Shown here: in pieces, positions 27,413 through 43,090 of the stretch
How positions within the stretch are numbered: position 1 is the first letter of the stretch
How the letters are laid out: every line of letters begins with the position of its first letter
Assembly (NCBI GenBank): GCA_025463365.1
Contig: JAOBWM010000131.1
Coordinates: forward strand, 1 to 43,090
Reading direction: 5' to 3'
Length of the DNA stretch: 43,090 bases
From: Acidimicrobiales bacterium
Lineage (GTDB): Bacteria > Actinomycetota > Acidimicrobiia > Acidimicrobiales > Iamiaceae
The notes under the pieces: model-generated
The model's input: only the letters and a program-made list of their open reading frames with translations
Database searches by the model: none
What the model was told of the DNA's origin: nothing
Made by a program: the position numbers and the translations under genes

Positions 27413-28774
27413 ATGACAAGACCTCATCGTCGGGTGATCATCGCCACCGCTGCGTTGCTGCTCGTGGCGGCGTCGTGTGGCAACGCAACGGGGACAGCGG
27501 GGAACAGTTCCGACAAGAAGGTGAAGGCGCCCACCGACGGTGGCGAGGCCAACCGCAAGACGCACAAGGTGATCAGCGGCGTCCCGGGTGTGAGCGACAA
27601 GGAGATCGCCTACGCGGTCGTCGGCACCAAGCAGAACAACCCCCTCGGGACCTGCATCCTCGACTGCTACCTCGACGGCATCAAGGCGTACTTCGACTAC
27701 CGCAACGACCAGGGCGGGATCTACGGGCGCAAGCTGGTGGTCGGCGAGGTGACCGACGATCAGCTCGGCAACAACCAGGCCGATGCCCTGGCCATCACCT
27801 CGGGCAACAAGGCGTTCGGGTCGTTCCAGGCCGGCCTGCTCCAGCAGGGCTGGGGCGAGCTCAACGACGCCGGCGTCCCCACCTACACCTGGGGCATCGA
27901 CGGCACGTCTGCCGCGAACCGTGACGCGATCTTCCCGAGCACGGTCATCGGCTGCCCCGACTGCACGCGTCGCGTCGTGCCCTACGTGGCCATGCAGGCC
28001 GGCGCCAAGCACGCGGGGGTGCTCGGGTACAGCACCAGCCAGAACTCCCAGCTGTGCGCCGACTCGACCGGCGCGTCGTTCAAGAAGTACGCCCGCGACA
28101 CCGGCGTCGACCTGGCGTACCTGAAGGACGACCTGCCGTACGGCCTCGCCAACGGCATCGGGCCCGAGGTGACCGCGATGAAGAAGAAGCACGTCGACTT
28201 CATCTCGACCTGCTTCGACCTCAACGCCATGAAGACGCTCGCCCAGGAGCTCAAGCGCCAGGGCATGTCCGACGTGCGGCTGTACCACCCGAACACCTAC
28301 AACCAGAAGTTCGTGCAGGACGCCGGAGGCTTGTTCGAGGGGGACTTCGTCGACGTGCAGTTCCGCCCGTTCGAGGCCGCGACCAACACGGCGCTGACCG
28401 CGTTCAAGAAGTGGATGGGCAAGAACAACAGCGACCTGACGGAGCTGGCCATGGTCGGATGGATCAACGCCACCCTCGCCTACGACGGCCTCCTCGCCGC
28501 CGGGCCGCAGCTCGACCGGGCCAAGGTCCTGGCGGCCACCAACGCGATGAAGGACTTCACCGCCGACGGGCTCATCAGCGCGATCGACTGGTCCACCGCG
28601 CACAAGCCCTACACGCAGGCGACACGTTCGAAGGTGAAGGACCTGGAGTGCGGGACGGTCGTCGAGGTGGCCAACGGTCGGTTCCGGCAGCTCGGGTCGA
28701 AGGACAAGCCCTGGCTCTGTTGGGATTCCACGGACCTGACGTGGTCCAAGCCCGTCCCGACCAACTTCGACTGA
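27413..28774 (+). CDS. Branched-chain-amino-acid-type ABC transporter substrate-binding lipoprotein
   Basis: 453 residues from the ATG at 27413. The signal peptide ends in the lipobox LLVAASC, with C22 as the lipid-modified residue, followed by a Gly/Ser/Lys tether. The mature domain is a type I periplasmic-binding fold of the LivJ/AmiC kind: GIKAYFDYRNDQGGIYGRKL, TSGNKAFGSF, MKKKHVDFISTCFDLNA and LAYDGLLAAG. It is unusually rich in cysteine for this family (GTCILDC, IGCPDC, LCADS, STCFD, LECG, WLCWD), so several disulfides are likely outside the cell. It delivers a small amphipathic solute, not necessarily an amino acid, to the permease encoded 22 bp downstream. First gene of the importer operon. 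Confidence 0.9.
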   Translation: MTRPHRRVIIATAALLLVAASCGNATGTAGNSSDKKVKAPTDGGEANRKTHKVISGVPGVSDKEIAYAVVGTKQNNPLGTCILDCYLDGIKAYFDYRNDQGGIYGRKLVVGEVTDDQLGNNQADALAITSGNKAFGSFQAGLLQQGWGELNDAGVPTYTWGIDGTSAANRDAIFPSTVIGCPDCTRRVVPYVAMQAGAKHAGVLGYSTSQNSQLCADSTGASFKKYARDTGVDLAYLKDDLPYGLANGIGPEVTAMKKKHVDFISTCFDLNAMKTLAQELKRQGMSDVRLYHPNTYNQKFVQDAGGLFEGDFVDVQFRPFEAATNTALTAFKKWMGKNNSDLTELAMVGWINATLAYDGLLAAGPQLDRAKVLAATNAMKDFTADGLISAIDWSTAHKPYTQATRSKVKDLECGTVVEVANGRFRQLGSKDKPWLCWDSTDLTWSKPVPTNFD

Positions 28775-28796
28775 TCCGGCGGCCGGACCACTCCTC

Positions 28797-30896
28797 ATGC
28801 TGCTTGGCGCCTCAGCGGGTTCGGATCTCCTCCGGGCCCTGATCCAAGGAACCCCCGCCGGGACCGTCTACGCGCTCTTGGCGCTGGGCCTCGTCCTGAC
28901 GTACAAGACGTCCGGCGTGTTCAACCTGGCCCTCGGTGCCCAGGCGTACGTCTCGGCCGCGCTCTACTTCCAGGCCCGCGTGACCTGGGGTTGGGGGATC
29001 GTCCCGTCGCTCCTCGTCTCGGTCTTCCTGCTGGCGCCCGCGATCGGGTGGGTGCTCGAGCGCTTCGTCTTCCGCCACCTTCGCACCGCATCCGCGGTGG
29101 CCAAGCTCGTGGTGACCATCGGCCTCGCGGTGGCCCTCCCCGCGCTGTTCGACCTCGTGGTCGGGTTCCAGTCGATCGCCGGGCAGACCCCGGTCGGCAT
29201 CGTCCCCGGTGGGGCGACCGTCTTCTACGACCCGTTCGGGGTGTACGCACTGAGCCGCAACGAGCTGACAGCCGTCGCGGTGGCCGCGCTGGCCATGGCC
29301 GGCCTGGCCGGCCTCTTCCGGTACACCACGGTCGGGCTGCACATGCGCGCCGTGGTCGAGAGCCCCCGCATGACCGAGCTGAACGGCATCCGCGCCGATC
29401 GCGTCTCGTCGTTCTCCTGGGCCCTGTCGAGCTTCTTCGCCGGCCTGGCCGGCGTGCTGATCGCTCCGCGGTTCAACACGCTCGCGGCACCGGACTTCTT
29501 CAACCTCGTCGTGATCGCGGTGGCCGCGGCGGCCATCGGGATGTTGGTGAGCCTCCCGCGGACCCTCGCCGGCGGCCTGGGGCTCGGTCTGCTGATCGCC
29601 GTGTTCCAGACGTTCCTGCCACGGTGGTCGGACAGCTGGCCGTGGCTGAACACGGTGCGCCAGAACATCACGCCCGCCATGCCCTTCGTCGTGCTCTTCG
29701 CGGTGCTGGTGTTCTGGCCGGCCATCCGTCGCAGCCGAGCCGCCTCCGATCCGCTGGCCGGCGTCGACCCACCGCCGCCGGCGCTCGCCTCGCTGAGCCG
29801 CAGCCGCGGCCTGACCGTGGCCACCCGTGCCTTCGCGGTCGTGTTCCTCACCATCACCGGCCTCACGGTGTTCTTCCGAGCTGACGCGTCGTGGACCTTC
29901 GTGGTCACGCAGGCGGTCATCCTCTCGCTGATCTTCTTGTCGATCACCGTGATCACCGGCCTGGCCGGCGAGATCTCGCTGTGCCAGGGCACGTTCGCGG
30001 CCGTCGGTGCCTTCGCGTCGTTCCAGCTGGTCAACCACATGGGGATGTCCGTCCTCGTGGCCGCCCTCGTCGGCGCGGTGATCGCCTCCGCGGTTGGCGC
30101 GCTGCTGTCGCTGCCGGTCCTGCGGCTGGGCGGCATCTGGCTGTCGATCGCCACCCTCGCCTTCGCCTACTTCTTCGACTCGGTGATGGTGAAGTTCTCT
30201 TGGGTCGGCGGCGGGCAGAAGGCGCTCGAGGAGGGCACCCGCCTGCCGCGGCCCACCCTCGGGCCGTTCAACATGAACGACAACCGCACGTTCCTCGTCT
30301 TGTCGATCGTGCTGCTGGTGGTGGTGGCGTTCGCGGTGGTGCGCATCCGGGAAGGCACGATCGGCCAGACGCTGCGGGCGCTGCGCGGGAGCGAGCTGGG
30401 CGCGCAGTCGATCGGCATCTCGCCGGCCCGCGCTCGCGTCACGGCGTTCGCCATCTCCGCCTTCATCGCCGGCCTCGGCGGTGCGCTGCTGGCCATCCAC
30501 CAGCAGAACGTCAACTACTCCAGCAACTTCTCCCCGTTCGCGAGCCTGTTCTGGCTCGTCCTCGTGGTGTCGCTCGGCGCCCGTACCGTCGAAGGCGCCA
30601 TGCAGGCCGGCGCCGCCTTCGGTCTGTTCGACGCGGTCCTCCTGAAGGGCGCGATCTTCGGGTGGATCCTGCGGAGCCCCGAGCGGATCCCGAGCTTCTT
30701 CCCGCTCTCGCCCACGTGGACCTACGTGCTGTTCGGCCTCGGTGCCCTCCAGTTCGCCCGTCACCCGGAGGGACTGGTCGAGAGCGGCAAGCGGCGCTCC
30801 ACCGAGAAGGTCGAGCAATGGTGGGCCGCTCGCCACCAAGGCGTGGAGCCGGCCGAGCAGGCCGCGGAGCCCGCGGAACCCGGGGTGATCTCGTGA
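28797..30896 (+). CDS. Fused LivH-LivM branched-chain-type ABC permease
   Basis: 699 residues, about twice the size of one permease. Residues 1-300 are LivH-like (GTVYALLALGLVLTYKTSGVFNLA, ELNGIRADRVSSFSWALSSFFAGLAG). A Pro-rich linker around 320-340 (GVDPPPPALASLS) leads into a LivM-like half (LSITVITGLAGEISLCQGTFAAVGAF, LRGSELGAQSIGISPARARVTAF). The protein ends in a cytoplasmic Glu/Ala/Pro-rich tail. Both halves contain the coupling-loop segments that dock the two ATPases. The fusion secures a 1:1 assembly of the heterodimeric channel. Start ATG at 28797; no strong ribosome-binding site is visible. Its stop overlaps the next gene (GTGA). Confidence 0.93.
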   Translation: MLLGASAGSDLLRALIQGTPAGTVYALLALGLVLTYKTSGVFNLALGAQAYVSAALYFQARVTWGWGIVPSLLVSVFLLAPAIGWVLERFVFRHLRTASAVAKLVVTIGLAVALPALFDLVVGFQSIAGQTPVGIVPGGATVFYDPFGVYALSRNELTAVAVAALAMAGLAGLFRYTTVGLHMRAVVESPRMTELNGIRADRVSSFSWALSSFFAGLAGVLIAPRFNTLAAPDFFNLVVIAVAAAAIGMLVSLPRTLAGGLGLGLLIAVFQTFLPRWSDSWPWLNTVRQNITPAMPFVVLFAVLVFWPAIRRSRAASDPLAGVDPPPPALASLSRSRGLTVATRAFAVVFLTITGLTVFFRADASWTFVVTQAVILSLIFLSITVITGLAGEISLCQGTFAAVGAFASFQLVNHMGMSVLVAALVGAVIASAVGALLSLPVLRLGGIWLSIATLAFAYFFDSVMVKFSWVGGGQKALEEGTRLPRPTLGPFNMNDNRTFLVLSIVLLVVVAFAVVRIREGTIGQTLRALRGSELGAQSIGISPARARVTAFAISAFIAGLGGALLAIHQQNVNYSSNFSPFASLFWLVLVVSLGARTVEGAMQAGAAFGLFDAVLLKGAIFGWILRSPERIPSFFPLSPTWTYVLFGLGALQFARHPEGLVESGKRRSTEKVEQWWAARHQGVEPAEQAAEPAEPGVIS

Positions 30897-31669
30897 CCGA
30901 CGTGCCACTGCTGCGGGCCCGCGGGATCACCAAGGCCTTCTCGGGGATCATGGCGGTGCAACACGTCGACGCCGTCGTGGCCGAGGGCGAGCGGGTGGGC
31001 CTCATCGGGCCGAACGGAGCCGGGAAGACCACGTTCTTCAACTGCCTCCTCGGGGTGATCCCGACCGACCAGGGCGTGGTCGAGATCGACGGTGTCGACG
31101 TGAGCGGCCTGCCGGTGCACCATCGGTCGAAGCGGGGGATCGGGCGGACGTTCCAGCGCATCGAACTGTTCGCCGAGGCCACCGTGCGCGAGCACCTGCT
31201 GATCGCCGAGCGCACCCGTCGGGCCGACGGTCGCCTGTGGAAGGACCTCATCGGGCGGGGCCGGCCCACCGTCGACGAGATCGAGCGCTGCGACCGCATC
31301 CTGGAGCTGCTCGGACTGGTCGAGCTGGCCGAGCAGCCGAGCGAGCACCTGAGCCTCGGGCAAGGGCGGCTGCTGGAGGTCGGGCGGGCGCTCATGACCG
31401 AGCCGCGGCTCCTGCTGCTGGACGAGCCGTCGTCCGGGCTCGACCATGAGGAGACGGTCGACCTGGCGCGGACGCTCCGGGACGCGCAGGCCGACCGCGG
31501 CTTCGCCGTGCTCCTCGTGGAGCACGACGTCGAGTTCGTCGCCGACTTCACCGATCGCTGCCTGGTGCTCGATGCCGGGAAGCTGATCGCCGAAGGGCCC
31601 ACCGGGCAGGTGCTCGCGAGCGACGCCGTGCGCGAGGCCTACCTCGGGACCGCGGGGGCAGCGTCGTGA
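30893..31669 (+). CDS. livG: ABC transporter ATP-binding protein (LivG-like)
   Basis: 258 residues from the GTG at 30893, overlapping the permease stop by 4 nt. Walker A GPNGAGKTT, Q-loop GRTFQRIELF, signature LSLGQGR (in place of LSGGQ), Walker B LLLLDEPSSGLD and the switch His in LLVEHDVEF are all present. The insert between Q-loop and signature is typical of LivG, as is the C-terminal PTGQVLASDAVREAYLG. It powers uptake with its LivF-like partner encoded directly downstream. Cytoplasmic face of the membrane. Confidence 0.93.
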   Translation: MTDVPLLRARGITKAFSGIMAVQHVDAVVAEGERVGLIGPNGAGKTTFFNCLLGVIPTDQGVVEIDGVDVSGLPVHHRSKRGIGRTFQRIELFAEATVREHLLIAERTRRADGRLWKDLIGRGRPTVDEIERCDRILELLGLVELAEQPSEHLSLGQGRLLEVGRALMTEPRLLLLDEPSSGLDHEETVDLARTLRDAQADRGFAVLLVEHDVEFVADFTDRCLVLDAGKLIAEGPTGQVLASDAVREAYLGTAGAAS

Positions 31670-32397
31670 CCGCGGTCCTCGAGCTCCACGACGTGTGCGC
31701 CGCCTACGGGCCTTTTCGCGCCCTGTTCGACGTGTCGCTCACCATCGGACCCGGGGAGGCGGTCGCCCTGCTCGGGCCGAACGGTGTCGGCAAGACGACC
31801 GTCGCCCGCGTGGCCAGCGGGCTCGTCGCACCGACGTCTGGCCGCGTCGAGGTCGACGGCGTCGACCTCAGCGGCGCGCCGGTTCACCGCTATTCGCGGG
31901 CCGGCGTCGCCCACGCGCCCGAAGGCCGTTCGGTCTTCGCCACCTTGTCGGTGGAGGACAACCTGGTGCTCTCGTTCCGCCAGTCCAAGGGCCGCCAGGG
32001 CGTGGCCGACGCGCTGGCGCGGGCGTTCGAGTTCTTCCCGGTGCTCGAGCCCCGCCGCCGCCAGCTCGCCGGGACCCTCTCGGGCGGCCAGCAGCGCATG
32101 CTCTCCATGGCGCGGGTCATGGTCGAGGCGCCCAAGCTGCTGGTGGCCGACGAGCTGTCGCTCGGGCTCGCGCCGATCGTCGTCGACCAGGTGTACGACA
32201 CCCTCGGCCGCCTGCGCGAAGCGGGCACGGCGCTGTTGATCGTGGAGCAGCACGTGCCGCACGCCCTCGCCCTGTGTGACCGGGTCGTGCTGCTCGGCCA
32301 CGGCGCGGTGGTATGGGATGGTCCGGCGGCCGACGCCGCCGACGTGATCGCCGACAAGGTCTTCCGCCAGGCCCAGGACGAGCCCACCGGTCCCTGA
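31666..32397 (+). CDS. livF: ABC transporter ATP-binding protein (LivF-like)
   Basis: 243 residues from the GTG at 31666, overlapping livG by 4 nt. Walker A GPNGVGKTT, Q-loop/LivF hallmark APEGRSVFATLSVEDNL, signature LSGGQQRML and switch His in IVEQHV are clear. Walker B reads LLVADELSLGLAP, with Leu where most family members have Pro after the catalytic Glu; the Glu itself is kept, so it should hydrolyse ATP. Last gene of the four-gene importer operon. Its stop lies only 3 bp from the stop of the convergent amine oxidase gene. Confidence 0.93.
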   Translation: MTAVLELHDVCAAYGPFRALFDVSLTIGPGEAVALLGPNGVGKTTVARVASGLVAPTSGRVEVDGVDLSGAPVHRYSRAGVAHAPEGRSVFATLSVEDNLVLSFRQSKGRQGVADALARAFEFFPVLEPRRRQLAGTLSGGQQRMLSMARVMVEAPKLLVADELSLGLAPIVVDQVYDTLGRLREAGTALLIVEQHVPHALALCDRVVLLGHGAVVWDGPAADAADVIADKVFRQAQDEPTGP

Positions 32398-32400
32398 TCG

Positions 32401-34275
32401 TCAGTGGCAGTGGCTCGTGGGCGGGACGTCGAGCGCCGGGTTGGCGTCGAAGAACCCGACCGGGGCCAGGCGGAACCCGCAGTGCTCCACCGGCATCACC
32501 GGCCAGTCCTCCGGCCGCGGGACGTGGGTGACCCCGAACGCGTGCCACACCACCACCGACGTGTCCGCGAGGGAGCGATCGGCCTCGGTCCAGCGGGGAA
32601 GCCCGTCGCCGCCGGGATGTTGGTTCGGGTGGTCGCCCGCGGCCCGGCGCTCGTCGGGGGCGGGCGGGGTGACCCAGAGGTTGTGACGGGCGAAGCCGGC
32701 CCGGGCCGACACGCTCGATCCCTCGCCGGCCAACAGGGTGGGCGATGACCCGGGCACCAGCTTGTAGGCGGTGGGGCGGCCGAGCCCGTTCTGGCGGGTG
32801 GGGTTGACGATCTGCCACGTGCGGCTGCGAGCCGGGTCGACGTCGCGGCATGCCGCCAGCTCATGGTCGAGGCGCGTCCGCACGGGCTCGAAGCCGTTCT
32901 CCCACGGGTTGTCCTCGCCCGGGGGCATCGGGACCACGTCGACCTCGTGGACCTCGTTGATCGGGCCGTCGACGGCCGTGTCGAGGCGGACGCAGAACAA
33001 GTGCTGGTGGACCGGAGCGGCGAGGCCCGGCGCCAGCTCGGGGGCATGCACGGTGGCCTCGCCCGGCGTGATCGCCTTGGTCGACAAGATGCCCGTGAGC
33101 TTGACGTCGAGCTCCATCGAACCATCGAGGTAGAAGTACCAGTAGAAGGCGTACTCGTAGTTGCCGACCGTGGCGATCGACGAGACGACCATGCGGCGGG
33201 AGCGGCGGACCTCGGTGCGGCCCGTGAGGAGGTCGACGTGCTTCCAGAGGATGCCGACGTCCTCTTCGTGGAGGCAGATCGCGTTGGTGAGGGTCGCGGG
33301 AACGCCGTGCTCGTCGGCCGAGGTGGCGTGGAGGTAGCGGATCTCGCCCAGGCAGTCGCAGCCGAGCGTCAACGAGTTCGCCATCCGGCCAAGGCCCCAC
33401 TCGCCCACGTCGAACGCGTTCTTCCACCCGTGCGCCGGGTCGGGGTCGCCGTAGGGCACGACCATCTCGCTCATCGCCGCCCGGCGCAGGATCGGCCGGA
33501 CGTGGCCGCCGTCCTCGTAGCCCACGTCGTGCAGGACCAAGCCCTCGAGCGGGTCGAGCGACACATGCATCGACCAGCGCTGCCAGCGCAGCACGTGGCC
33601 GTCGAGGGTGAAGCTGGGCCCGTCGGGCTGGGTGATGTCGAGGCGTCGCAGGTCGTGGCGGTGCGGCTCGTGGTCTGCGGGGAGGTAGCTCCCACGCTCG
33701 ACCGGCAGTGGCACCAGGCCGTGGTCGATGATCTCGAGCACCTCGCCGCGGGCCATGTCGACCACCGCGAGCAGGCCCTCGATGGGCCGGGCGTAGCCGT
33801 TGTCGCTCGGGTGCTCGCGGAAGTACGAGATGCAGCGGGCGACGCGCTTGCCCTCCTCCGCGGGGTCCCCGAAGCTCCCGGTGGGCCACGGGTCGATCTG
33901 CACCTGGGTGAGGTCGGTGATGCCCCGCCGGGCCAGGGCCTCGCGGTAGCCGTCGTGGCCGTGGAGGGTGGCGATGGCGACGAGCGATTCGTGGAATCCG
34001 AGGGCCGGCCGCACCCCGTCGCGCACATCCCACCCGACGAGCTCGCCGCTGGCCACCTCGACGACGGCCTCGACCACCGACGCGTCCGGCCCGTCGACGA
34101 TCACGAGCCGGGCTCGTCTCGGGCGGGTGGTGATGTCGACCCCCGGCGGCTCCTCGAGCGTGATGGTCGAGAACCAGGCGGCTTCGCCGAGACGACCGGT
34201 CGCTCGGACGGCGGCGACCACCGCGACGATCTCGGCCGCGTCGAGGGGGTCGAACGGGTGGGGCGTGGGGGTCAT
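32401..34275 (-). CDS. Copper-containing primary amine oxidase (TPQ type, AGAO-like)
   Basis: 624 residues from the ATG at 34275, which overlaps the dehydrogenase stop (ATGA). All active-site elements of bacterial copper amine oxidases are present: catalytic base D289 in AFDVGEWG, Y373 in GNYEY as the precursor of the topaquinone cofactor, and copper ligands H423, H425 (HQH) and H584 (THVPR). The spacing of these matches Arthrobacter globiformis phenylethylamine oxidase (84, 50-52 and 159 residues apart), and even the C terminus ends SHCH as there. The reaction is RCH2NH2 + O2 + H2O to RCHO + NH3 + H2O2. No signal peptide, so cytoplasmic. The aromatic or aliphatic amine used is unknown. Confidence 0.96.
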   Translation of the reverse strand: MTPTPHPFDPLDAAEIVAVVAAVRATGRLGEAAWFSTITLEEPPGVDITTRPRRARLVIVDGPDASVVEAVVEVASGELVGWDVRDGVRPALGFHESLVAIATLHGHDGYREALARRGITDLTQVQIDPWPTGSFGDPAEEGKRVARCISYFREHPSDNGYARPIEGLLAVVDMARGEVLEIIDHGLVPLPVERGSYLPADHEPHRHDLRRLDITQPDGPSFTLDGHVLRWQRWSMHVSLDPLEGLVLHDVGYEDGGHVRPILRRAAMSEMVVPYGDPDPAHGWKNAFDVGEWGLGRMANSLTLGCDCLGEIRYLHATSADEHGVPATLTNAICLHEEDVGILWKHVDLLTGRTEVRRSRRMVVSSIATVGNYEYAFYWYFYLDGSMELDVKLTGILSTKAITPGEATVHAPELAPGLAAPVHQHLFCVRLDTAVDGPINEVHEVDVVPMPPGEDNPWENGFEPVRTRLDHELAACRDVDPARSRTWQIVNPTRQNGLGRPTAYKLVPGSSPTLLAGEGSSVSARAGFARHNLWVTPPAPDERRAAGDHPNQHPGGDGLPRWTEADRSLADTSVVVWHAFGVTHVPRPEDWPVMPVEHCGFRLAPVGFFDANPALDVPPTSHCH

Positions 34276-35516
34276 CGCTGCGGGTCGATCGCGACCTTGA
34301 CGGCACCGCTGTTTGCCTGGTCCGCCAGGGCCACGAACGCCTCGCGCCACGCCGACAGGCCGAAGGTGTGGGTGAGCAGGCCGGTCAGGTCGATGCGACC
34401 GTCGGCGACCAGGTCGAGGTAGTGGGCGATGGCGTGTTGGCGGACGCCCCCGACCTCCTCGATGCCGAAGGCGTTCGAACCCACGAGGTCGATCTCCTTG
34501 AAGTAGTGGGGGCTCCACTCCCATCGAGTGGGCGCGTGCACGCCACTGACGACGAGGGTCCCCCGCGCCGCGAGGACCCGCGTCTCCACCTCGAACGTCT
34601 CGCCCTTGCCGATGGTGTCGTAGGCGACGTCGATCCCGCCCGGATGGCACATGGGCAGGCCACCCAGCCCTTCCATGGTCGGTCGCAGGATCCCGCCCGA
34701 CCATGCGGCCAGGTCCTCGACCAGTTCGAGTTGCGAGGCCGGCCGGATGACGTGGTGCGCACCGAAGCGCCGGGCGAGGTCGGCCTGGGCGTCGAAGCGG
34801 GCCACCACCGCGATCTCGACGTCGGCGAACAACGCTCGCAGGACCGCGATGGCACACAGGCCGAGGGCGCCGGCACCCCAGACGAGGACGCGCCCACCAG
34901 GTGGCGGCGGGTGGCGGGTGACGCTGTGCAGCGAGACGGAGAACGGATCGGCGAACACCGCGAGCTCGTCGTCGATCTCGTCCGGGACGGCGAACAGCAT
35001 GGTGGAGTGGGCGGGCATCAGCTCGGCGTAGCCACCGGTGGCATCGGTCGACGTGCCGGTGTGGATGCCCGGGCTGATGTCCCCGGTGGTGAAGTTCCAG
35101 CACAGGCTCGAGTCGCCGGCGAGGCACGCCGGGCACGGGGGCGTGATCCCCCGCGGCGCGCAGCTCAACCACGGGTTGAGCACGACGCGCTGGCCGACGT
35201 CGAACCCGGTGGCCTCGGGGCCGAGCTCGACGACCTCGGCCACGACTTCGTGCCCCATGACCTGGGGGAACGAGCACAGCCCGCTGAGTGCGCTGTCGTG
35301 GTCGCCGTCGCCGAAGTCGAGGAGGATCTGCTTGGAATCCGACCCGCAGATGCCGGTGAGGAGCGGCCGGGTGAGCAGCCAGTCAGGCCGCAGCGGACGG
35401 GCATCGGGGACATCGCGCAGTCCCACCGGCGTGACGCTCAGGTTGGTCGTGAGTCGGTTCGCGTCGGGCGGCGCGTCCCACGGGTCGGCCGCGACGCCGA
35501 ACACCAGCGCCCTCAC
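34272..35516 (-). CDS. Zinc-type medium-chain alcohol dehydrogenase
   Basis: 414 residues from a GTG at 35516, chosen because GAGGGG lies about 8 nt upstream; the frame extends to a TTG at 35555 without such a signal. Zinc-site residues: C in GICGSD and HE in MGHEVVAEV. A structural-zinc-like Cys loop is partly kept (PPCPACLAGDSSLCW). The Rossmann motif is WGAGALGLCA. The region LLDFGDGDHDSALSGLCSFPQVMGH is longer than in common alcohol dehydrogenases. It overlaps the amine oxidase gene by 4 nt, so it may process the aldehyde made by that enzyme or an amino-alcohol upstream of it (inference). Upstream partner in a two-gene minus-strand operon. Confidence 0.88.
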   Translation of the reverse strand: MRALVFGVAADPWDAPPDANRLTTNLSVTPVGLRDVPDARPLRPDWLLTRPLLTGICGSDSKQILLDFGDGDHDSALSGLCSFPQVMGHEVVAEVVELGPEATGFDVGQRVVLNPWLSCAPRGITPPCPACLAGDSSLCWNFTTGDISPGIHTGTSTDATGGYAELMPAHSTMLFAVPDEIDDELAVFADPFSVSLHSVTRHPPPPGGRVLVWGAGALGLCAIAVLRALFADVEIAVVARFDAQADLARRFGAHHVIRPASQLELVEDLAAWSGGILRPTMEGLGGLPMCHPGGIDVAYDTIGKGETFEVETRVLAARGTLVVSGVHAPTRWEWSPHYFKEIDLVGSNAFGIEEVGGVRQHAIAHYLDLVADGRIDLTGLLTHTFGLSAWREAFVALADQANSGAVKVAIDPQR

Positions 35517-35579: not shown

Positions 35580-36992
35580 GTGTCAGAAGCCAGGGGGGTG
35601 ACGGCCGGGATCGACATCGGGACCACGTCGGTGAAAGCCGTCGTGGCCGATGCCGACGGCACGGTCCTGGCCCGGGCGCGCGTGCCACACGCCGTGTTGG
35701 CCTCGGCCGACGGCGAGTTCACCCACGATGTCGACCAGGCGTGGCGCGCCGACGTGCTCGATGCGCTGGCGCAGGTCGAACAGGTCGCGCACGCGTACGC
35801 ATCCGGGCCGATCGATGCGATCTCGGTCTCGGCGATGGTGCCATCGCTCGCGGCCGTCACTGCGGCCGGCAACGCGATCGGCCCGGGCCTGCTCTACGGG
35901 GACCGGCGCGGTCGGCACGAGGACCGCAATCCGAACATGCCGGGTGACGGTGGCGAGGTGGTGGCATTCCTGGCGTGGCAGGCGGCCCACGCGCCCGAAG
36001 CCGCCGGCTTCTGGCCGGCCCAGGCGGTGGCCAACCACGCCCTGTGCGGCTCCGGCTCCATCGACGCCAACACCGCGATGACGGCCTGGCCGCTGTTCGA
36101 CCTCGAACGGTGGGACGTGGCGATCGCGGCATCGGCCGGGGTCGACGTGGCCAAGCTCGCCCGCGTCGTGCCTGGCCTCGAGCCGGTCGGCCGGGTGCCG
36201 ACCGGCCGACCTGGCGGGGGAGCACTCGTGGGCGGCGGCACCGTCGATGCCTTCGCCGAACAGCTGGTGTCGGGGGCCACGGAGGCCGGCGACGTGATCG
36301 TGCTGTGCGGCACCACGCTCATCACGTGGTCGGTCGCCGACGGCTGGCCCACCGCGCCAGGCCTGTGGTCCGTCCCGCACCACGTGCCCCAGCGCTGCCT
36401 CATCGGGGGCCCGAGCAACGCCGGCGGGCTCTTCCTCGACATGGTCACCCGCTGGCTCGGGCCGGACGCGCTGGCCGGCCTCCCGGCGCTCGCGCCCGGC
36501 GACCTCCCGGTGTGGCTACCCTACGTCCGCGGCGAGCGCACGCCCCTGCACCGCCACGACCTGCGCGCCGGGCTCCACGACGTCTCGCACCGCCATGGCC
36601 CGGCCCACGTCCTGGCCGCCGCCTACGAGGCGAGCGCGTTCGTGGTCCGCCACCACGTCGACCTGGCCCGCGAGGCGGGTGTCGAGCCGCGGCGGATCGT
36701 CGCGAGCGGCGGGGGCACGCGGTCGGCGGCGTGGATGCAGGCCCTGGCCGACGTCACCGGGCTGACCGTCGACGTGTCGGCCCTGCCCGAAGGCGCCGCC
36801 CTCGGCGCCGCCTTCCTCGCTCGCTGCTCCGCCGGCCTCGAGAACCATCCCCGCGACGCCACCCGCTGGGCCCGCACCGGCCACACGGTGGAGCCCCGCC
36901 CAGCCTGGCTCGCCCCCGCGACCGAGCGCTACACCCGCTTCCGCAGCCTCACCGCCGAAGCCCTCGCCAACCCCCAACCCCGACCGACCTGA
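35580..36992 (+). CDS. FGGY-family carbohydrate kinase
   Basis: 470 residues from a GTG at 35580. N-terminal ATPase motif GIDIGTTSVKAVVAD and the GDRRGRHED segment place it in the FGGY/actin-like kinase fold. The second domain has LIGGPSNAGGLFLDM, VWLPYVRGERTPL and the C-terminal signature region IVASGGGTRSAAWMQALADVTG. It transfers phosphate from ATP to a hydroxyl of a sugar, polyol or related compound; relatives include xylulokinase and fuculokinase, but the sequence does not settle the substrate. It stands alone on the plus strand between two minus-strand operons. Its product could feed the class II aldolase of the neighbouring operon (inference). Confidence 0.87.
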   Translation: MSEARGVTAGIDIGTTSVKAVVADADGTVLARARVPHAVLASADGEFTHDVDQAWRADVLDALAQVEQVAHAYASGPIDAISVSAMVPSLAAVTAAGNAIGPGLLYGDRRGRHEDRNPNMPGDGGEVVAFLAWQAAHAPEAAGFWPAQAVANHALCGSGSIDANTAMTAWPLFDLERWDVAIAASAGVDVAKLARVVPGLEPVGRVPTGRPGGGALVGGGTVDAFAEQLVSGATEAGDVIVLCGTTLITWSVADGWPTAPGLWSVPHHVPQRCLIGGPSNAGGLFLDMVTRWLGPDALAGLPALAPGDLPVWLPYVRGERTPLHRHDLRAGLHDVSHRHGPAHVLAAAYEASAFVVRHHVDLAREAGVEPRRIVASGGGTRSAAWMQALADVTGLTVDVSALPEGAALGAAFLARCSAGLENHPRDATRWARTGHTVEPRPAWLAPATERYTRFRSLTAEALANPQPRPT

Positions 36993-37011
36993 CCGGCCCT
37001 CGGCGGGTCAG
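36989..37011. terminator. Shared hairpin spanning two convergent stop codons
   Basis: CTGACC (36989-36994) pairs with GGTCAG (37006-37011), and inside them GCC pairs with GGC around a CTC loop after one mismatch. Each stop codon lies inside one arm. Likely a bidirectional terminator for the kinase and GMC genes. Confidence 0.5.
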
Positions 37012-38699
37012 TCAGCGAGGAGGGTTGCGGCCCGGTGGGAGAGAGCGGCGAGCGTGAGGGTGGGGTTGTAGCCGGCCGAGGTCACGAAGACCGAGGCGTC
37101 GCAGACGAGGACGTTCGGCACGTCCCACAGGCGCTGCTCGGGGGAGACCACGGACGTGGCGGGGTCATGGCCCATGCGGGCCGTGCCCATCACGTGCCGG
37201 CTGGCGGGTGCGACGCCGATGGGGCTGATGTCGCCGTGCAGGTCGATGTGGTCCTGGGGCGGTGACGTGGCGGAGAAGGCGGCCTGGGAGCCGGCGTCGG
37301 CGAGGATCGCCTCGTGGACCCGGGCGGAGTACGCCGACGCGACCAGCTCGTGGCGATGCGGCCGGTAGGTGACCCGGCCGGCGGGGAGCCCCCAGGCATC
37401 ACGGACCGACGGGTCGAGGTCGATCCGGTTGTCGGGCTGGGCCAGGTCCTCGCCCTGCATGGTCAGGACCCACAGACGCCGGCGCAGGCTGCTGTCGACC
37501 ATCGCGGCGAGGTGGCCGGCGCCGCCGGGGTACATGGCCGCCTCGTCGACCGGCCCTGCCGCCGAACCGTGCTCGGTCACGCCACCGCGCAGCCACGGGA
37601 GGCCGGCCTGGCGCGCCGCGGCCCGGAGCTCGGGGGTGTCGATCATGAGGTCGTCGTGGAGGTGGGTCACGTCACGGCCGCGATCGCCGCCGGTGTCGTC
37701 GGCGAAGACGCCGACCGTGAACGTCTGGAAGTGGTACGTGAGGTTCCGGCCGACGAGGTCGCCGCCCAGGTCGTTGCGCAGCAGGAGCCGGGCCGTCTCG
37801 AACGACCCGCCGGCCACGATCACCGCGCGGCTGGCCCGCAGCTCCACCACCGGCGCGTCGGGGTGCTGCGTGAGGTCGAGGTAGCGCACGCCGGTGGCCC
37901 GCTTCCCGGACGCGTCGAGCACGATCTCGGTCACGAGCGCTTCTGGCCGGACCTGGCCCCGACCGGTCCGCAGCATCCGCTGCAGCGATGCGATCGGGTC
38001 GCCCTTGGCCGCGATCGGGCAGCCGTAGCGACCACAGAACCCGCAGTCGACGCAGGCCGGCCGGCCGTCGTACTCGACGCTGTTCGTGCCGGTGGGGGCG
38101 CGGTACGGGTGGAGCCCGGCCCGCTCGGCCGCGGCCGACGACACCAGCGCCATCGCCATGTCCGGCCCGGACGGCATGGGGTACCCGGAGCTGCGCCAGG
38201 CGGCGAAGGGGTTGGTGCCCACCTCGCCGGCCACCCCGATGATGCGCTCCACCGCGGCGTAGTGCGGCTCGAGGTCGGCGTAGGAGATCGGCCAGTCGCG
38301 CACGTCGGCACGGTCGATCGGTCCCCGAGTGGTGTGGAGCGCGAAGTCCTCCTCGCGGAAGCGGGGGAGCTTGGCGTCGGCGTGGAACCCGCCGCCGCCC
38401 ACCGTCGACGGCAGGTTGTTGACCTCACCGGTGAGCAAGCGGTCGCCGTCTTCGACGCTGCGCCGGTAGGTCCGCGGCTCGAGGAGCGGGTCCGGGCCGA
38501 GGAGGTGGCGGTGGACGAGGGCGATCTCGTCGTTGGCCAGGTGACGGAGCGGGTCGTGGGGCGCGTCGAGGTCGACCAGGTGGTTGCGACCCTTCTCGAG
38601 GACGATCACCGACCAACCCGCCGCGGTGAGCACGTCGGCCGCGGTGGCCCCGCCGGGCCCGCTGCCGATGACGATGGCGTCGCAGTCGGCGTCGGTCAC
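37008..38699 (-). CDS. GMC-family FAD oxidoreductase (dehydrogenase large subunit)
   Basis: 563 residues from a GTG at 38699 that overlaps the small-subunit stop. FAD-binding IGSGPGGATAADVL near the N terminus, then GEVNNLPSTVGGGG. The Cys-rich CVDCGFCGRYGCPIAAKGD, found in GMC dehydrogenases that carry an iron-sulfur cluster, follows. Late motifs: catalytic H502 in HVMGTARMGHDP and N545 in AGYNPTLTLA. It oxidises an alcohol or sugar hydroxyl to a carbonyl and passes electrons to a carrier instead of oxygen, by analogy with gluconate/glucose dehydrogenases. No Tat or Sec signal is visible, so it is probably cytoplasmic or membrane-attached from inside. Last gene of the six-gene operon; a hairpin follows. 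Confidence 0.92.
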   Translation of the reverse strand: MTDADCDAIVIGSGPGGATAADVLTAAGWSVIVLEKGRNHLVDLDAPHDPLRHLANDEIALVHRHLLGPDPLLEPRTYRRSVEDGDRLLTGEVNNLPSTVGGGGFHADAKLPRFREEDFALHTTRGPIDRADVRDWPISYADLEPHYAAVERIIGVAGEVGTNPFAAWRSSGYPMPSGPDMAMALVSSAAAERAGLHPYRAPTGTNSVEYDGRPACVDCGFCGRYGCPIAAKGDPIASLQRMLRTGRGQVRPEALVTEIVLDASGKRATGVRYLDLTQHPDAPVVELRASRAVIVAGGSFETARLLLRNDLGGDLVGRNLTYHFQTFTVGVFADDTGGDRGRDVTHLHDDLMIDTPELRAAARQAGLPWLRGGVTEHGSAAGPVDEAAMYPGGAGHLAAMVDSSLRRRLWVLTMQGEDLAQPDNRIDLDPSVRDAWGLPAGRVTYRPHRHELVASAYSARVHEAILADAGSQAAFSATSPPQDHIDLHGDISPIGVAPASRHVMGTARMGHDPATSVVSPEQRLWDVPNVLVCDASVFVTSAGYNPTLTLAALSHRAATLLAD

Positions 38700-39157
38700 G
38701 TCGCCTCGGCTGGCGTGGCGTCGACCGTCTGCGCCGCCCGGGCCGGGGGGAACATCGGGTCGGGGAAGCCGATGCGCTGCCAGCCGCCTCGGTCGCGGTT
38801 GCCGCCGTAGGCCGGGTCGCCGTAGGTGGCCTCGCACGCATGGTCGTGGAGCATCCGGCGATCGGCCTCGGTCGCGTCGCCCGCGGCCACCCGTGCATAG
38901 GCGACTCGCATGGCGTCGATCCGCTGGGCCCACGCGGCGCGCTCCCACGCACCCAGTTCCAGCCACTCGGCTCCGGAGGCCTCGGGCGCGGCCCAGATCC
39001 GTGGCGGGTCGTGGTCGAGCGCGGTCAGCAACTGCTCCACGTACGCGACGGCACCGAGGTCCGACGCGCCCGGCACCTGCGCGTCGAGCGCGGCCGCGAC
39101 GACGATGCGGGAGGCTTCGTCGAACACCGGCTGCGTCGTGGATCCGCCGGTGCTCAC
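38696..39157 (-). CDS. Gluconate-2-dehydrogenase subunit 3 family protein
   Basis: 153 residues from a GTG at 39157. The sequence fits the small (gamma) subunit family: a helical protein with YVEQLLTALD, WERAAWAQRIDAM and the conserved end CEATYGDPAYGGNRDRGGWQRIGFPDP. In known enzymes this subunit binds and stabilises or exports the GMC large subunit. Typical members have a Tat signal; here none is present, which suggests the complex stays in the cytoplasm. It overlaps both neighbours by 4 nt (GMC downstream, aldolase upstream), strong evidence for a joint enzyme in this pathway. Confidence 0.88.
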   Translation of the reverse strand: MSTGGSTTQPVFDEASRIVVAAALDAQVPGASDLGAVAYVEQLLTALDHDPPRIWAAPEASGAEWLELGAWERAAWAQRIDAMRVAYARVAAGDATEADRRMLHDHACEATYGDPAYGGNRDRGGWQRIGFPDPMFPPARAAQTVDATPAEAT

Positions 39158-39816
39158 GGGTTCTCCCGGATGAACCGGTACACGCCGGCCATGTCGCGGT
39201 TCACCTTCTCGGGCAGCGGGTGGATGGTCGCCCCCATGGCCCTCGTGCCCCACACGATCTTGGCGGTGCGCTCCACCAGCGCCGCGTTGTGCAGCGCCTT
39301 GGCCGGCGTGGACGCGCAGGTCACCAGACCGTGGTTGGCGAGCAGGGCCGCGCCCCGCTCGGCGAGGTGGTCGGCCACCTCGTCGCCCAGCTCGGCGGTG
39401 CCCGTCCCCTTGTACTCGCAGCACGGCACGTCGCCGCCCAGGTACACGACGACCTCCTCGATCACCGCCGGGATCGGCTCGTGGGCGAGGGCGAACATGG
39501 TGGCGTAGACCGCGTGCGTGTGGATCACCGACCCCAGTTCCGGATAGCGCCGGAGGGCACCGAGGTGGAGGTCCTTCTCGGTCGTCGGTGACCGTTCCCC
39601 GCTCACCACGGTGCCGGCGAGGTCGACGATCACGAGGTCGTCGAGGGTCATCGTGTCGTAGGGCACCGACGACGGCGACAGGCACACCAGCCCGTCGGGC
39701 AGGCGGCCGGAGATGTTGCCCGACGTTCCCTCCACCAAGCCGTCGGCGAGCATCTGCTTGGCCGCGGCGAGGACCTCCTCGGGGGTCGTGGTGGGCGAGG
39801 CGGCGGCGTCAGCCAT
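39154..39816 (-). CDS. Class II aldolase/adducin family protein (fuculose-phosphate-aldolase-like)
   Basis: 220 residues from the ATG at 39816. It matches FucA-type aldolases residue by residue at the metal site: E80 (SPTTEKDLH), H99 and H101 (HTHAVYATMFA) and H162 (NHGLV), with the phosphate-site segment GTSGNISGRL near 30-39. The family splits ketose 1-phosphates to dihydroxyacetone phosphate and an aldehyde, or decarboxylates or epimerises related compounds, using Zn2+. Presence in an operon with a GMC dehydrogenase and a D-2-hydroxyacid dehydrogenase fits breakdown of a sugar acid or polyol derivative (inference). Its start overlaps the hydroxyacid dehydrogenase gene by 8 nt. Confidence 0.9.
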   Translation of the reverse strand: MADAAASPTTTPEEVLAAAKQMLADGLVEGTSGNISGRLPDGLVCLSPSSVPYDTMTLDDLVIVDLAGTVVSGERSPTTEKDLHLGALRRYPELGSVIHTHAVYATMFALAHEPIPAVIEEVVVYLGGDVPCCEYKGTGTAELGDEVADHLAERGAALLANHGLVTCASTPAKALHNAALVERTAKIVWGTRAMGATIHPLPEKVNRDMAGVYRFIRENP

Positions 39817-40798
39817 GGGTGCGAACCTCCGGGTTGGCGAGGTTGGCGGGGGACTCGCCCCGGAGCAGCGCCGCCAGCCCCTCGGCCATCAGGGTCGTGT
39901 GGGCGGTCTCGGTGTCGTAGGTGGCACCGCCGATGTGGGGCGCCAGGAGCACGTTGTCCATGGCGATCAGCGGGTGGTCGATGGCGATCGACTCGCCGTC
40001 GAAGTGATCGAGCGCGGCAGCTGACAGGTGGCCCGACTCCAGCGCCTCCACCAGCGCGTCGAGATCGTGCAGCCCGGCCCGCGCCGTGTTCACGTAGACC
40101 GCGCCGTCCTTCATCTGAGCGAAGCGCGCCGCCGACATGAGCCGCAGCGTGTCGGGCGTGACCGCGGCGTGCATCGACACGACGTCCGCTTCGGCCAGCA
40201 GGTCGTCGAGGCTGTGGGTGGCGTCAGGGCTGAAGGGATCGCTGGCGATGACGCGCATGCCGAGCCCTTCGAAGCGCCACTTGGCGGCCTGACCGACGGC
40301 ACCGAGACCGACCAGGCCGATCGTCTGGCCGGCCAGCTGCCAGCCGCGCATCCGCTGGTAGGGGATGGTGCCGTCGGCGAACACCCGGCCCTGACGGACG
40401 TCGCGGTCCGCGGCGAGCAGGTGGCGCGTCAGGGCGAGGAGCATGGCGACGGCCATCTCGGCCACGCCGTCGGCGTTGCGGCCCGGTGCCCGCAGGACCG
40501 GGATGCCGTGCTCGGTGGCGCCGGCCAGGTCGACGTTGGTGGGATCGCCGCGGGTGGACCCGATGGCGACGAGCGGCAGGTCGAACACCGGGCCCTTGCA
40601 CTGATCGGCCTCGCAGATCAGCACGGTCGCCCCCTCGGCCGCGGCCCGCTCGGCCAGCTGCGCGGCGTTGTAGATGCGCAGCGGTCGCTGGTCGATCCAG
40701 GGGTCGCAGATCACCGTCCCGAGGTCCCGGAGGGCCTCGAGACCGGGTCCCCGCAGCGGTGCGGTCGAGAAGATGACCGGTCGGTCCGTACTGGTCAT
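39809..40798 (-). CDS. D-isomer-specific 2-hydroxyacid dehydrogenase
   Basis: 329 residues from the ATG at 40798. NAD-binding GLVGLGAVGQ at 161-170 and the complete catalytic set R240 (VNTARAGL), E269 (HFDGES) and H288 (APHIGGAT). An early GRNADGVAEMAVAMLLAL helix is typical of the D-2-hydroxyacid dehydrogenase/phosphoglycerate dehydrogenase group. Reaction: D-2-hydroxyacid + NAD+ to 2-oxoacid + NADH. No C-terminal ACT domain, so not a classical serine-pathway enzyme. It overlaps the hotdog protein gene by 4 nt and the aldolase gene by 8 nt. It may oxidise a hydroxyacid made by the GMC complex or reduce an oxoacid (inference). Confidence 0.92.
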   Translation of the reverse strand: MTSTDRPVIFSTAPLRGPGLEALRDLGTVICDPWIDQRPLRIYNAAQLAERAAAEGATVLICEADQCKGPVFDLPLVAIGSTRGDPTNVDLAGATEHGIPVLRAPGRNADGVAEMAVAMLLALTRHLLAADRDVRQGRVFADGTIPYQRMRGWQLAGQTIGLVGLGAVGQAAKWRFEGLGMRVIASDPFSPDATHSLDDLLAEADVVSMHAAVTPDTLRLMSAARFAQMKDGAVYVNTARAGLHDLDALVEALESGHLSAAALDHFDGESIAIDHPLIAMDNVLLAPHIGGATYDTETAHTTLMAEGLAALLRGESPANLANPEVRTHG

Positions 40799-41982
40799 CG
40801 TTCGCTCCGGGGGTCGTCGGTGGGCAGGTCGACCTCGACGTCGGCCTTGGCCAGCACGGCATCGTCCTGGTTGCGCAGCTCGACGTGGACCATCGCGAGG
40901 TGGTGTCGGCGCTCGACGCGGGTGTCGGTCACCTCGCCGGAGATGATCGTGATGTCGCCGGTGAAGGCCGGGTTGCGGTACTGCGAGCTGGCGTGGGTGA
41001 TGAACCCCCACTCGCCGGCCCAGCCGGACACGAAGTCGAGGATCCACGCACCCATCGAGGCCCCGTAGCCGTAGCCCCGCGGCATGCCGACGTGCTGGGC
41101 CCAGCGTGGTTGGAGGTGGCCGCGCGACGGGCCGTAGTAGGCGCCGTCGGTCAGCTCTGGGTTGGTGCGCTCCATGCGGCGGTCGCCCTCGAAGCCCGCC
41201 ATCTCCTTGGTGTAGCCGAGCTCCTCGGCGCTCACCGTGGTGGGGCCCTTGGCCATGCCGCCCCAGGCCGTCATCGGGTAGGCCCGCCACTCGGTCGTGA
41301 AGCTGGCCAGGCTGTGCGGTCCGAGGATGTGCTCAGCCAATAGGTCGCCCGCCTTCACGTCGGAGAACAAGCGAGGCGCGTGGCCGAGCGACTGGATCTG
41401 GTCGACGAACCCGAGCTTGCGCTCTTCGAGCTCGGCCAGCTGCACATCGGTCCACTCGGGCTCGGACGGCTGGTCGAACAGTTGCTTCTCCTTGGCCTGG
41501 CGCACCTGGTAGCGGATCGAGGTGGAGCGCTGCTGGGCCACCCGCTCGCCACGCTGGTTGATGTAGAGCGTGTCGCCGCGCTGGAAGCAGGTCGGCCCGG
41601 CGAACTTGGTGTCGGTGACGCGGTAGTCGTAGGGCATCCGGTGGCAGACGAGCTGGTCGCCGGCGGCGATGCGCGGGCCGAAGAACCACCAGTCGTCGCC
41701 GCCGAAGATGAGGTGCGAGCGGGGGATCCGGCCGACCTGCGCGGGCGAGCAGCCGTGGCTGGTGTCGCACGCGACCGCGAACGACTGCGGTGCCACCAGG
41801 TCGCCGAAGCGGCTCTCGGCCGCCCACGCCGCGTCGTAGTGCAACGGGTTGGGGTAGTGCATGCCCTGCACCCACCGCCGGATGTCGTTGCGGGCCACCG
41901 GTTCGGTCAGCTCACCGGGTCGCATGGGCACGCCCATGTGGCGTGCCAGGTCCGAGGTGTCGAGCCCCTCGTTGTCGGTCAT
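40795..41982 (-). CDS. MaoC/FAS1-like hotdog dehydratase family protein
   Basis: 395 residues from the ATG at 41982. Two hotdog halves are visible: residues about 20-190 (MHYPNPLHYDAAWAAESRFGDLVAPQSFAV, then IRYQVRQAKEK) and about 250-390 (a degenerate MaoC-like half with GASMGAWILDFVSGWAG, TGDITIISGEVTDTRVE and VHVELRNQDD). Such FAS1-like/MaoC proteins hydrate or dehydrate acyl-CoA or acyl-carrier substrates. The usual Asp/His hydratase pair is not certain here, so activity is inferred from fold. Its position directly after an acyl-CoA ligase supports a CoA-ester substrate. It overlaps both flanking genes by 4 nt. Confidence 0.83.
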   Translation of the reverse strand: MTDNEGLDTSDLARHMGVPMRPGELTEPVARNDIRRWVQGMHYPNPLHYDAAWAAESRFGDLVAPQSFAVACDTSHGCSPAQVGRIPRSHLIFGGDDWWFFGPRIAAGDQLVCHRMPYDYRVTDTKFAGPTCFQRGDTLYINQRGERVAQQRSTSIRYQVRQAKEKQLFDQPSEPEWTDVQLAELEERKLGFVDQIQSLGHAPRLFSDVKAGDLLAEHILGPHSLASFTTEWRAYPMTAWGGMAKGPTTVSAEELGYTKEMAGFEGDRRMERTNPELTDGAYYGPSRGHLQPRWAQHVGMPRGYGYGASMGAWILDFVSGWAGEWGFITHASSQYRNPAFTGDITIISGEVTDTRVERRHHLAMVHVELRNQDDAVLAKADVEVDLPTDDPRSER

Positions 41983-43090
41983 GTCCCTCCTCGGACGTTC
42001 GGGCCGGATGTGGCCAGGCGGCGGGTGGCCAGCGCCACCAGCTCGGGATCGCGCACCTTCGAGCCGCTCGACGTCATCGGGATCTCCCCGTCGTCGAAGA
42101 ACAGCACGTGCTTGGGAACCTTGTAGGGCGACACGCGCGTGCGCAGGAACGACGTGATGTCGTCGGCGTCGGCCGCGGCCCCGTCGGCCAGCGTGACGCA
42201 GGCGACGACCACCTCACCGAGGCGCTCGTCGGGGAGGCCGAGCACGCGCGCCACCTTCACCGGCGCGCACGCCCGCAGCTGCACCTCGATCTCCGCGGGG
42301 GAGACGTTGGCGCCGCCGGTCTTGATCATCTCGGTGCGGCGCCCGACCCAGTGCAGGTTGCCGTCGGTGTCGTACCGGCCGACGTCGCCGGTGTGGAACC
42401 AGCCGTCCTCGTCGAGGCACTCCGCCGGGGTCATGCCGAGGTAGCGGAGCATCAGCGTCGGGCCCTTGATCACGAGCTCGCCGTCGGTGTCGGGGCCGAG
42501 CTCCCGGCCGGTGTCGGGGTCGAGGACCCGCGCCTCGTTGCCGGGGAGCAGCGGCCCGTGCGACGCCCGGAGCAGCTCGCGCGGCGTGGACGCACCGTGG
42601 GCGCTGAAGAAGGCACAGGTCTCCGACAGGCCGTAGCCGACCGGGCTGTTCCAGGTGGTGTCGCCGTGCACGGTCGGGTGCCGGGCGAGGGCCGACTTTC
42701 CGTAGACGCAGCGCAGCGACGACAGGTCGGTCGTGGGCCACGCCGGGTGCTCCGCGAGCGCGGCGGTCTGGTGGGGGAGCGCGTACGGCTCGGTCACGCG
42801 CTCGCGCTCGAGCAGCGCGAGCGCCGCGCCCGCCTCGAACGTCTCCTGCATCACCCAGCAGCCGCCGGCGGCCAGCGTGGCGCCCATGGCCGAGTTGAGC
42901 CCGGCGGTCCAGAAGATGGGCAGCGCGGCCCACATGCGGGTGGCCTCGTTGCGGCCGAAGATGCCGGACTGGAACCAGAACTGCAGCGTCGCGGCCCGCT
43001 GGTTGTGGACCACGCCCTTGGGTTCGGCGGTGGTGCCCGAGCTGAACAGCACCAGCCCTTCGTCCGCAGGGTCGGCCTCGGCCGGCTGCC
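41979..43090 (-). CDS. AMP-forming acyl-CoA ligase, C-terminal part (N terminus beyond window)
   Basis: The frame is open from the window edge to a TGA at 41979-41981, about 370 residues visible. It enters just before the P-loop LFSSGTTAEPKGVVH, then shows the middle-domain YGLSETCAFF, WFHTGDVGRYDTDGNLHWVGRR with the conserved Asp, and TGGANVSPAEIE. The C terminus IPMTSSGSKVRDPE carries the position of the catalytic lysine. It activates an organic acid to its CoA ester. It is the first visible gene of the coupled minus-strand operon; upstream members may lie outside the window. Differs from the ligase at 23.9-25.3 kb in all variable regions, so it is not a duplicate. Confidence 0.93.
   Translation of the reverse strand, partial: QPAEADPADEGLVLFSSGTTAEPKGVVHNQRAATLQFWFQSGIFGRNEATRMWAALPIFWTAGLNSAMGATLAAGGCWVMQETFEAGAALALLERERVTEPYALPHQTAALAEHPAWPTTDLSSLRCVYGKSALARHPTVHGDTTWNSPVGYGLSETCAFFSAHGASTPRELLRASHGPLLPGNEARVLDPDTGRELGPDTDGELVIKGPTLMLRYLGMTPAECLDEDGWFHTGDVGRYDTDGNLHWVGRRTEMIKTGGANVSPAEIEVQLRACAPVKVARVLGLPDERLGEVVVACVTLADGAAADADDITSFLRTRVSPYKVPKHVLFFDDGEIPMTSSGSKVRDPELVALATRRLATSGPNVRGGT

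Follow-up and report, generated by a model that had tools for sequence, protein, structure and literature searches.

The 43,090-nucleotide contig JAOBWM010000131.1 of an Acidimicrobiales bacterium of the family Iamiaceae (assembly GCA_025463365.1), here called the window, ends in six overlapping genes which specify an acyl-coenzyme A (CoA) ligase (LIG), a hotdog-type protein (MAOC), a member of the D-2-hydroxyacid dehydrogenase family (HDH), a class II aldolase (ALD), and the small (SML) and large (GMC) subunits of an FAD dehydrogenase. We consider it probable (roughly 0.6) that these genes are part of a catabolic operon of the Acidimicrobiia which has captured a ketose kinase/aldolase/2-hydroxyacid dehydrogenase module, the whole being joined from separable modules. 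Judging from the protein families, module 1 (ligase, a pair of acyl-CoA dehydrogenases and the hotdog protein) would convert a bulky or ring-bearing carboxylic acid to its CoA ester and begin its beta-oxidation. In module 2 a neighbouring zinc-dependent dehydrogenase (ADH) or GMC–SML may oxidise an alcohol to a ketose, which a kinase of the FGGY family (FGGY) would phosphorylate; ALD would then split the ketose phosphate to dihydroxyacetone phosphate and a short aldehyde, and HDH would interconvert the resulting 2-hydroxy/2-oxo acid. This putative two-module arrangement is supported by which genes are present, by their order and overlaps, by their modularity and co-occurrence, and by the active-site residues.

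A preliminary description of this DNA had reported six genes with five overlaps of 4, 4, 8, 4 and 4 nt, and the window sequence bears this out: ATGA at LIG/MAOC and at MAOC/HDH, ATGGCTGA at HDH/ALD, and GTGA at both ALD/SML and SML/GMC. The coordinates given for the six genes hold (Table 1), and Pfam backs all six labels, that of SML barely; the coordinates do not extend to two upstream operon genes, which lie off the contig, nor to the kinase, dehydrogenase and importer genes linked to the operon in the window. The 5' end of LIG is lost at the contig end (base 43090), the gene being complete in relatives, for example with 581 amino acids in locus L032 (loci are numbered with L, genomes with G). 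Overlaps of 4 nt are also present in four of the 17 other same-strand neighbour pairs of the window, so that coupling by itself is ordinary here. The notable feature is the conservation of the full gene order, rather than the overlaps.

Relatives were gathered by searching genome contigs with MAOC as the query; of the 23 loci obtained, 16 have a MAOC with 74% identity or more. The final tally adds to these 16 the window, L049, L083, L134, L135, L136 and L138, making 23 distinct loci in 22 genomes, all with MAOC at or above that identity; it takes in the MAOC-bearing genomes G025, G045, G077 and G302 and excludes L137, which is an identical stretch to L042. All six genes are ordered and close together in nine loci (the window, L029, L031, L032, L033, L038, L039, L083 and L135), among them L038, whose GMC is truncated by the contig end, and L083, where the order stands on a single 4.66-Mb contig. 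The order first read from one stretch of DNA thus recurs in nine of 23 Acidimicrobiia loci, the window included, and this conservation together with the anatomy backs the earlier proposal of a single transcription unit. In 15 of the 23 loci HDH lies downstream of MAOC, on its strand and at most 1.5 kb away; in the other eight (L030, L036, L037, L042, L134, L138, L027 and L034) it is not behind MAOC, though L027 and L034 offer merely 1.2–1.5 kb of sequence downstream of that gene. Truncation at contig ends affects L035, L040 and L049.

Two of these loci deserve separate mention. L136 (828–17587) carries the six genes on one strand in the usual order but spanning about 14 kb, HDH beginning 1.4 kb past MAOC and SML–GMC lying about 7 kb past ALD. 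L049 (contig C63 of the source genome, 5108–11079) is a second copy of acyl-CoA dehydrogenase pair, LIG, MAOC and HDH which ends within HDH at the contig end; its LIG, MAOC and HDH are 84–87% identical to those of the window, and it may be either a true paralogue or a product of mixed strains.

In the relatives two acyl-CoA dehydrogenase (ACAD) genes precede LIG with similar overlaps. The pair is adjacent in L032, with a full 388-residue and a short 322-residue product, and from such sequences the two proteins may form an alpha2beta2 heteromer of the steroid side-chain type. It would appear, with a fair balance of probability in its favour, that the operon proper has eight genes, ACADalpha-ACADbeta-LIG-MAOC-HDH-ALD-SML-GMC, of which the window holds the 3' six. 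Junctions were compared in 17 loci by choosing the in-frame start nearest to position -4, a procedure which shows that a start exists and not that it is the one used. Overlap-compatible starts at -4 were present at ACADalpha/ACADbeta in 10 of 13 cases and at ACADbeta/LIG in 12 of 12; compatible starts were further found at LIG/MAOC (13/13), MAOC/HDH (11/11), HDH/ALD (-8 in 8/10 and -4 in 2/10), ALD/SML (7/8) and SML/GMC (7/8). These counts leave aside L039 and L040 (no MAOC call), L042 (no adjacent pair), L134, L135, L136 and L138. Genes were called with a home-made codon-usage caller, which gave no output for L043, L089, L111 and L128 and overlooked the HDH of L109, known from tblastn.

Each module is also found apart from the other. 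Module 1, as ACAD-ACAD-LIG-MAOC, forms a unit without HDH in L030, L036 and L037. HDH and FGGY are side by side on the contig of MAOC, roughly 9–15 kb away, in G342 (the genome of L030) and G349 (that of L037), and the same distance separates MAOC from FGGY-HDH on their shared contig in G327. L134 presents a different arrangement, in which about 13 kb hold both MAOC-LIG and FGGY-HDH-ALD. In L109 and L110, which belong to another family of the phylum, module 2 is found alone as HDH-ALD-FGGY, an ADH gene lying a few kb away; there it adjoins secY, an M24 peptidase gene and LCM methyltransferases. We take L109 and L110 to be mycobacterial and their locus to be serA2-fucA-xylB, in the Rv0727c–Rv0729 neighbourhood.

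Co-occurrence was assessed in a draw of 296 genomes of the class, with matches accepted at E<=1e-80 for GMC, E<=1e-60 for HDH and E<=1e-80 for MAOC. GMC was matched in 49 genomes, HDH in 64 and MAOC in 12, and among the 64 genomes with HDH, 53 lacked a match to MAOC. Of the 49 genomes with GMC, 46 also carry HDH (Fisher 2.5e-35, with no correction for shared ancestry); the two share a contig in 13 of these and are no more than 10 kb apart in eight, G327 being counted among the near pairs through its weaker GMC (39%). MAOC and HDH were found together in 11 genomes, within 5 kb in four. ALD was called within five genes of HDH for 21 of the 22 called HDH genes. Neighbourhoods were sampled at 20 of the 65 places at which HDH was found. 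The preliminary description had foreseen the objection that the six genes might usually lie apart; across the class they do co-occur, but they are mostly non-adjacent, as the eight close GMC–HDH pairs among 46 illustrate.

The residues on which module 2 chemistry would depend are retained. E80, H99, H101 and H162 of ALD are invariant among 11 sequences; by analogy with the residue roles in E. coli FucA, E80 is presumably the catalytic Glu and H99, H101 and H162 the zinc-binding His. R240, E269 and H288 of HDH, which we take to be its catalytic Arg, Glu and His, are invariant among 10 sequences, and the solved structures closest to it are those of glycerate dehydrogenase/glyoxylate reductase. 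Serine biosynthesis was rejected as the role of HDH, which scores under the D-3-phosphoglycerate dehydrogenase cut-off and has ALD or FGGY close by in the neighbourhoods inspected. The 5-deoxyribose and apiose pathways were considered and dropped.

The best PDB matches of GMC are the large subunits of FAD glucose and fructose dehydrogenases. Of the 31 loci, the window included, whose GMC match reaches 56% or more, 30 have SML beside GMC, in keeping with the two-subunit FAD dehydrogenase proposed earlier. The exception is L028 (12899–13135, in a Microthrix metagenome-assembled genome), where a GMC remnant of about 79 codons is left, SML has no match and the rest of the operon is kept; this hints that GMC–SML is dispensable. 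Nor was an SML match found for the weak GMC of L134 (35%). Three cysteines of GMC, C216, C222 and C227, align on Cys212, Cys218 and Cys222 of the Burkholderia glucose dehydrogenase BcGDH, which bind its 3Fe-4S cluster (PMC6719666). The C..C..C....C motif is present in 25 of 26 GMC proteins and absent from that of L100. No twin-arginine (Tat) signal was seen by eye in the first 75 residues of 26 SML proteins, and no CxxCH protein is present among the gene calls of 17 operon loci, cytochrome genes elsewhere in the genome not having been looked for. Since the SML N-terminus is not Tat-like and no CxxCH protein is nearby, GMC–SML is probably cytosolic, and its sequence features suggest that it is probably a dehydrogenase of the GADH type, as are the Burkholderia glucose dehydrogenase and fructose dehydrogenase. 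No PDB sequence matched SML, even at E values of up to 1, and the predicted structure of GMC is poor, with a predicted local distance difference test (pLDDT) score of 34.9 from a 7-sequence alignment. The SML–GMC pair is widespread in the class; such pairs lie near hydantoinase A/B-family genes in L088, L091–L094 and L096–L098 (typed in L094, the others by clustering). Plasmid searches with GMC and ALD returned only matches below 60% identity.

Several observations weigh against an operon which has captured a sugar module. L026, which has the MAOC closest to that of the window, lacks LIG in its operon. HDH-FGGY is on another contig than MAOC in G348 (the genome of L036) and G302, and no HDH or FGGY match was found in G346 (L034) and G354 (L042), both draft metagenome-assembled genomes, despite their module 1 genes; the modules are therefore not obligate partners. 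GMC and HDH are not near one another in 38 of their 46 shared genomes, many of these assemblies being fragmented, and the statistic for their co-occurrence takes no account of ancestry. ALD falls below the FucA cut-offs of NCBIfam (TIGR01086, 106.8 of 400.25 bits; NF004527, 253.3 of 308), FGGY below that of XylB (TIGR01312, 139.1 of 380.25) and HDH below those for D-3-phosphoglycerate dehydrogenase and glyoxylate reductase (TIGR01327, 173.8 of 454; NF009714, 174.2 of 455), so that no exact activities are assigned. MAOC possesses an invariant H48 and GPSRGH block (17-sequence alignment), but neither half has a D-x4-H dyad, Y43 and G284 standing five residues before the invariant H48 and H289. 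We take Asp-x4-His to be the canonical dyad of MaoC (R)-specific enoyl-CoA hydratases. Of the earlier label "hotdog dehydratase" the hotdog family match stands, while dehydratase is doubtful, the canonical Asp being absent in both halves. The predicted structure of MAOC is poor as well (pLDDT 54.5, 18-sequence alignment).

Of the other explanations, one is that a single substrate has both parts, a ring-bearing acid being conjugated to a sugar or polyol, and that one module acts on each half. The acyl-CoA and sugar modules are indeed physically united, an importer is nearby, and sulfatase and short-chain dehydrogenase/reductase (SDR) genes are upstream in L032, L033 and L035; against this, no glycosidase or esterase was identified in the window or at the operon loci among those genes that were typed, which are not all of them. 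We consider a conjugate unlikely.

A single linear pathway was the reading of the preliminary description: oxidation by GMC–SML, cleavage by ALD of an unphosphorylated compound, oxidation by HDH, and capture by LIG as a CoA ester for MAOC. The conserved order and coupling of the genes are in its favour, as are the enoyl-CoA hydratase and thiolase-family genes within five genes of HDH-ALD for 11 of the 22 called HDH genes (families typed on L121 only). FucA-type aldolases, however, act on ketose-1-phosphates, and the linear route left out the neighbouring FGGY kinase. FGGY was matched in 17 of the 21 MAOC-bearing genomes searched, which points to phosphorylation ahead of cleavage; furthermore, module 1 is a unit without HDH in the three loci named above, and the ACAD pair would imply a saturated acyl chain, not a fresh 2-oxoacid. 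The linear route is, in our estimation, distinctly unlikely.

It is quite improbable that the two modules merely share an operon, the sugar module having been inserted behind an existing promoter and co-regulated without a shared pathway, for although each module is found without the other and the genes are often apart in the class, overlap-compatible junctions are retained in many loci and linkage of the modules takes at least three further forms (in G327, in G342 and G349, and in L136).

Starting from the catabolic operon with its captured module, one might go further and propose that Actinobacteria have a single pathway not yet described, in which a hydroxylated compound, ring or chain, would be oxidised by a cytosolic, iron-sulfur enzyme of the GADH type, phosphorylated by FGGY and cleaved by the FucA-type aldolase, the acyl remainder passing to CoA ligation and beta-oxidation encoded by the same operon. 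We regard this extension as rather doubtful. If true, mycobacterial serA2-fucA-xylB would be its stripped-down form, catabolic instead of serine-biosynthetic. No described pathway with this gene set was found in the open-access literature, in agreement with what had been stated before.

Table 1. Genes of the operon and linked or nearby genes in the window
Feature	Positions	Strand	Basis
LIG, acyl-CoA ligase (AMP-binding)	41979-43090	minus	Pfam AMP-binding 127.8 bits, AMP-binding_C 51.2 bits
MAOC, hotdog-type protein, 395 amino acids	40795-41982	minus	FAS1_DH_region 108.7 bits
HDH, D-2-hydroxyacid dehydrogenase family	39809-40798	minus	2-Hacid_dh_C 169.5 bits
ALD, class II (FucA-type) aldolase	39154-39816	minus	profile matches and invariant active-site residues
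SML, small subunit, Gluconate_2-dh3 family	38696-39157	minus	26.1 bits, cut-off 23.4
GMC, FAD large subunit with iron-sulfur cysteine motif (C216, C219, C222, C227)	37008-38699	minus	Pfam and PDB matches
FGGY-family sugar kinase	35598-36992	plus, convergent with operon	FGGY_C 90.5 bits, FGGY_N 43.1 bits; start by codon usage
ADH, zinc-dependent dehydrogenase	34272-35504	minus	Pfam; start by codon usage
CAO, copper amine oxidase	32401-34275	minus	primary-amine oxidase NF008559, 837.6 bits, cut-off 651
Branched-chain-amino-acid-type ATP-binding cassette importer (binding protein, fused permease, two ATPases)	27434-32397	plus	
Adjacent genes for a thiolase and an OB-fold ChsH2_C protein	22155-23770		

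Among the genes around the operon, FGGY is found downstream on the opposite strand in nine of the 23 loci and ADH is linked to the operon in five. CAO is linked to it in two only, the window and L026. A CAO-ADH pair recurs in L101 (15267–17998) within 7 kb of another SML–GMC pair; neither HDH nor ALD was matched near it in that stretch. Genes of the importer's clusters are near the operon or module 1 in L033, L036 and L083. The thiolase/ChsH2_C pair presumably resembles the steroid side-chain aldolase pair, and a homologue of this thiolase adjoins LIG in L042 (862–2028). Further along the window there are an AMP ligase, a class III CoA-transferase, an SDR and an enoyl-CoA hydratase; with the thiolase and OB-fold genes these make the region rich in acyl-CoA genes. 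The window also holds a large subtilase with PA, fibronectin III and DUF4214 domains (10519–14553).

Compared with known systems, module 2 recalls the FucK-FucA and RhaB-RhaD pairs, which also combine an FGGY kinase with a class II aldolase; they differ in that no isomerase is among the genes typed here, HDH and GMC–SML being present instead. Clusters for steroid and alicyclic acid side chains combine ACAD pairs, a ligase, a hotdog protein and OB-fold/thiolase proteins. The present operon shares with them the ACAD pair with its short second subunit, the ligase and the hotdog protein, and the window the OB-fold ChsH2_C protein and thiolase, but no ring-degradation gene is among the window genes typed and a sugar module is attached. 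Steroid catabolism was rejected as the role of the whole operon, the ChsH2_C/thiolase pair and the neighbour in L048 being mere hints. In L048 (7198–10067) a proteobacterial MAOC homologue, 55% identical, directly precedes a 3-ketosteroid-dehydrogenase-like gene.

With the GADH-type enzymes GMC–SML shares the GMC large subunit, the Gluconate_2-dh3 small subunit and three aligned cysteines. The cysteine spacing differs, being C-x5-C-x4-C with an extra Cys219 in the window and C-x5-C-x3-C in BcGDH. Unlike those enzymes, which are Tat-exported with a multihaem cytochrome subunit, the window pair has neither a Tat signal nor a nearby CxxCH protein that we could see, and it suggests that the iron-sulfur FAD sugar dehydrogenases have a variant which is probably cytosolic.

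The mycobacterial fucA-serA2-xylB set (Rv0727c–Rv0729), whose members we take to be labelled as serine-synthesis, fucose and xylulose enzymes, has the same three families as module 2; in it FGGY and HDH diverge and ALD is adjacent. In L109 and L110 an ADH with 69–70% identity lies a few kb from module 2. The L109 aldolase scores 465.2 bits against NF004527 (cut-off 308) and so lies above the cut-off which the window ALD (253.3) fails to reach; and unlike the window operon, the 20-kb stretches of L109 and L110 contain no matched ligase, ACAD, MAOC, SML or GMC. No pathway for the mycobacterial region was found in the open-access literature. In the parts of PMC12119724 and PMC3955624 which concern it, Rv0728c carries the label phosphoglycerate dehydrogenase/serine pathway, repeated without test, and the corresponding part of PMC5748942 lists only deletions. 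The three-gene set of two apparently mycobacterial genomes is here linked with a catabolic operon conserved among uncultured Acidimicrobiia, and this connection provides a genomic handle for tracing the substrate.

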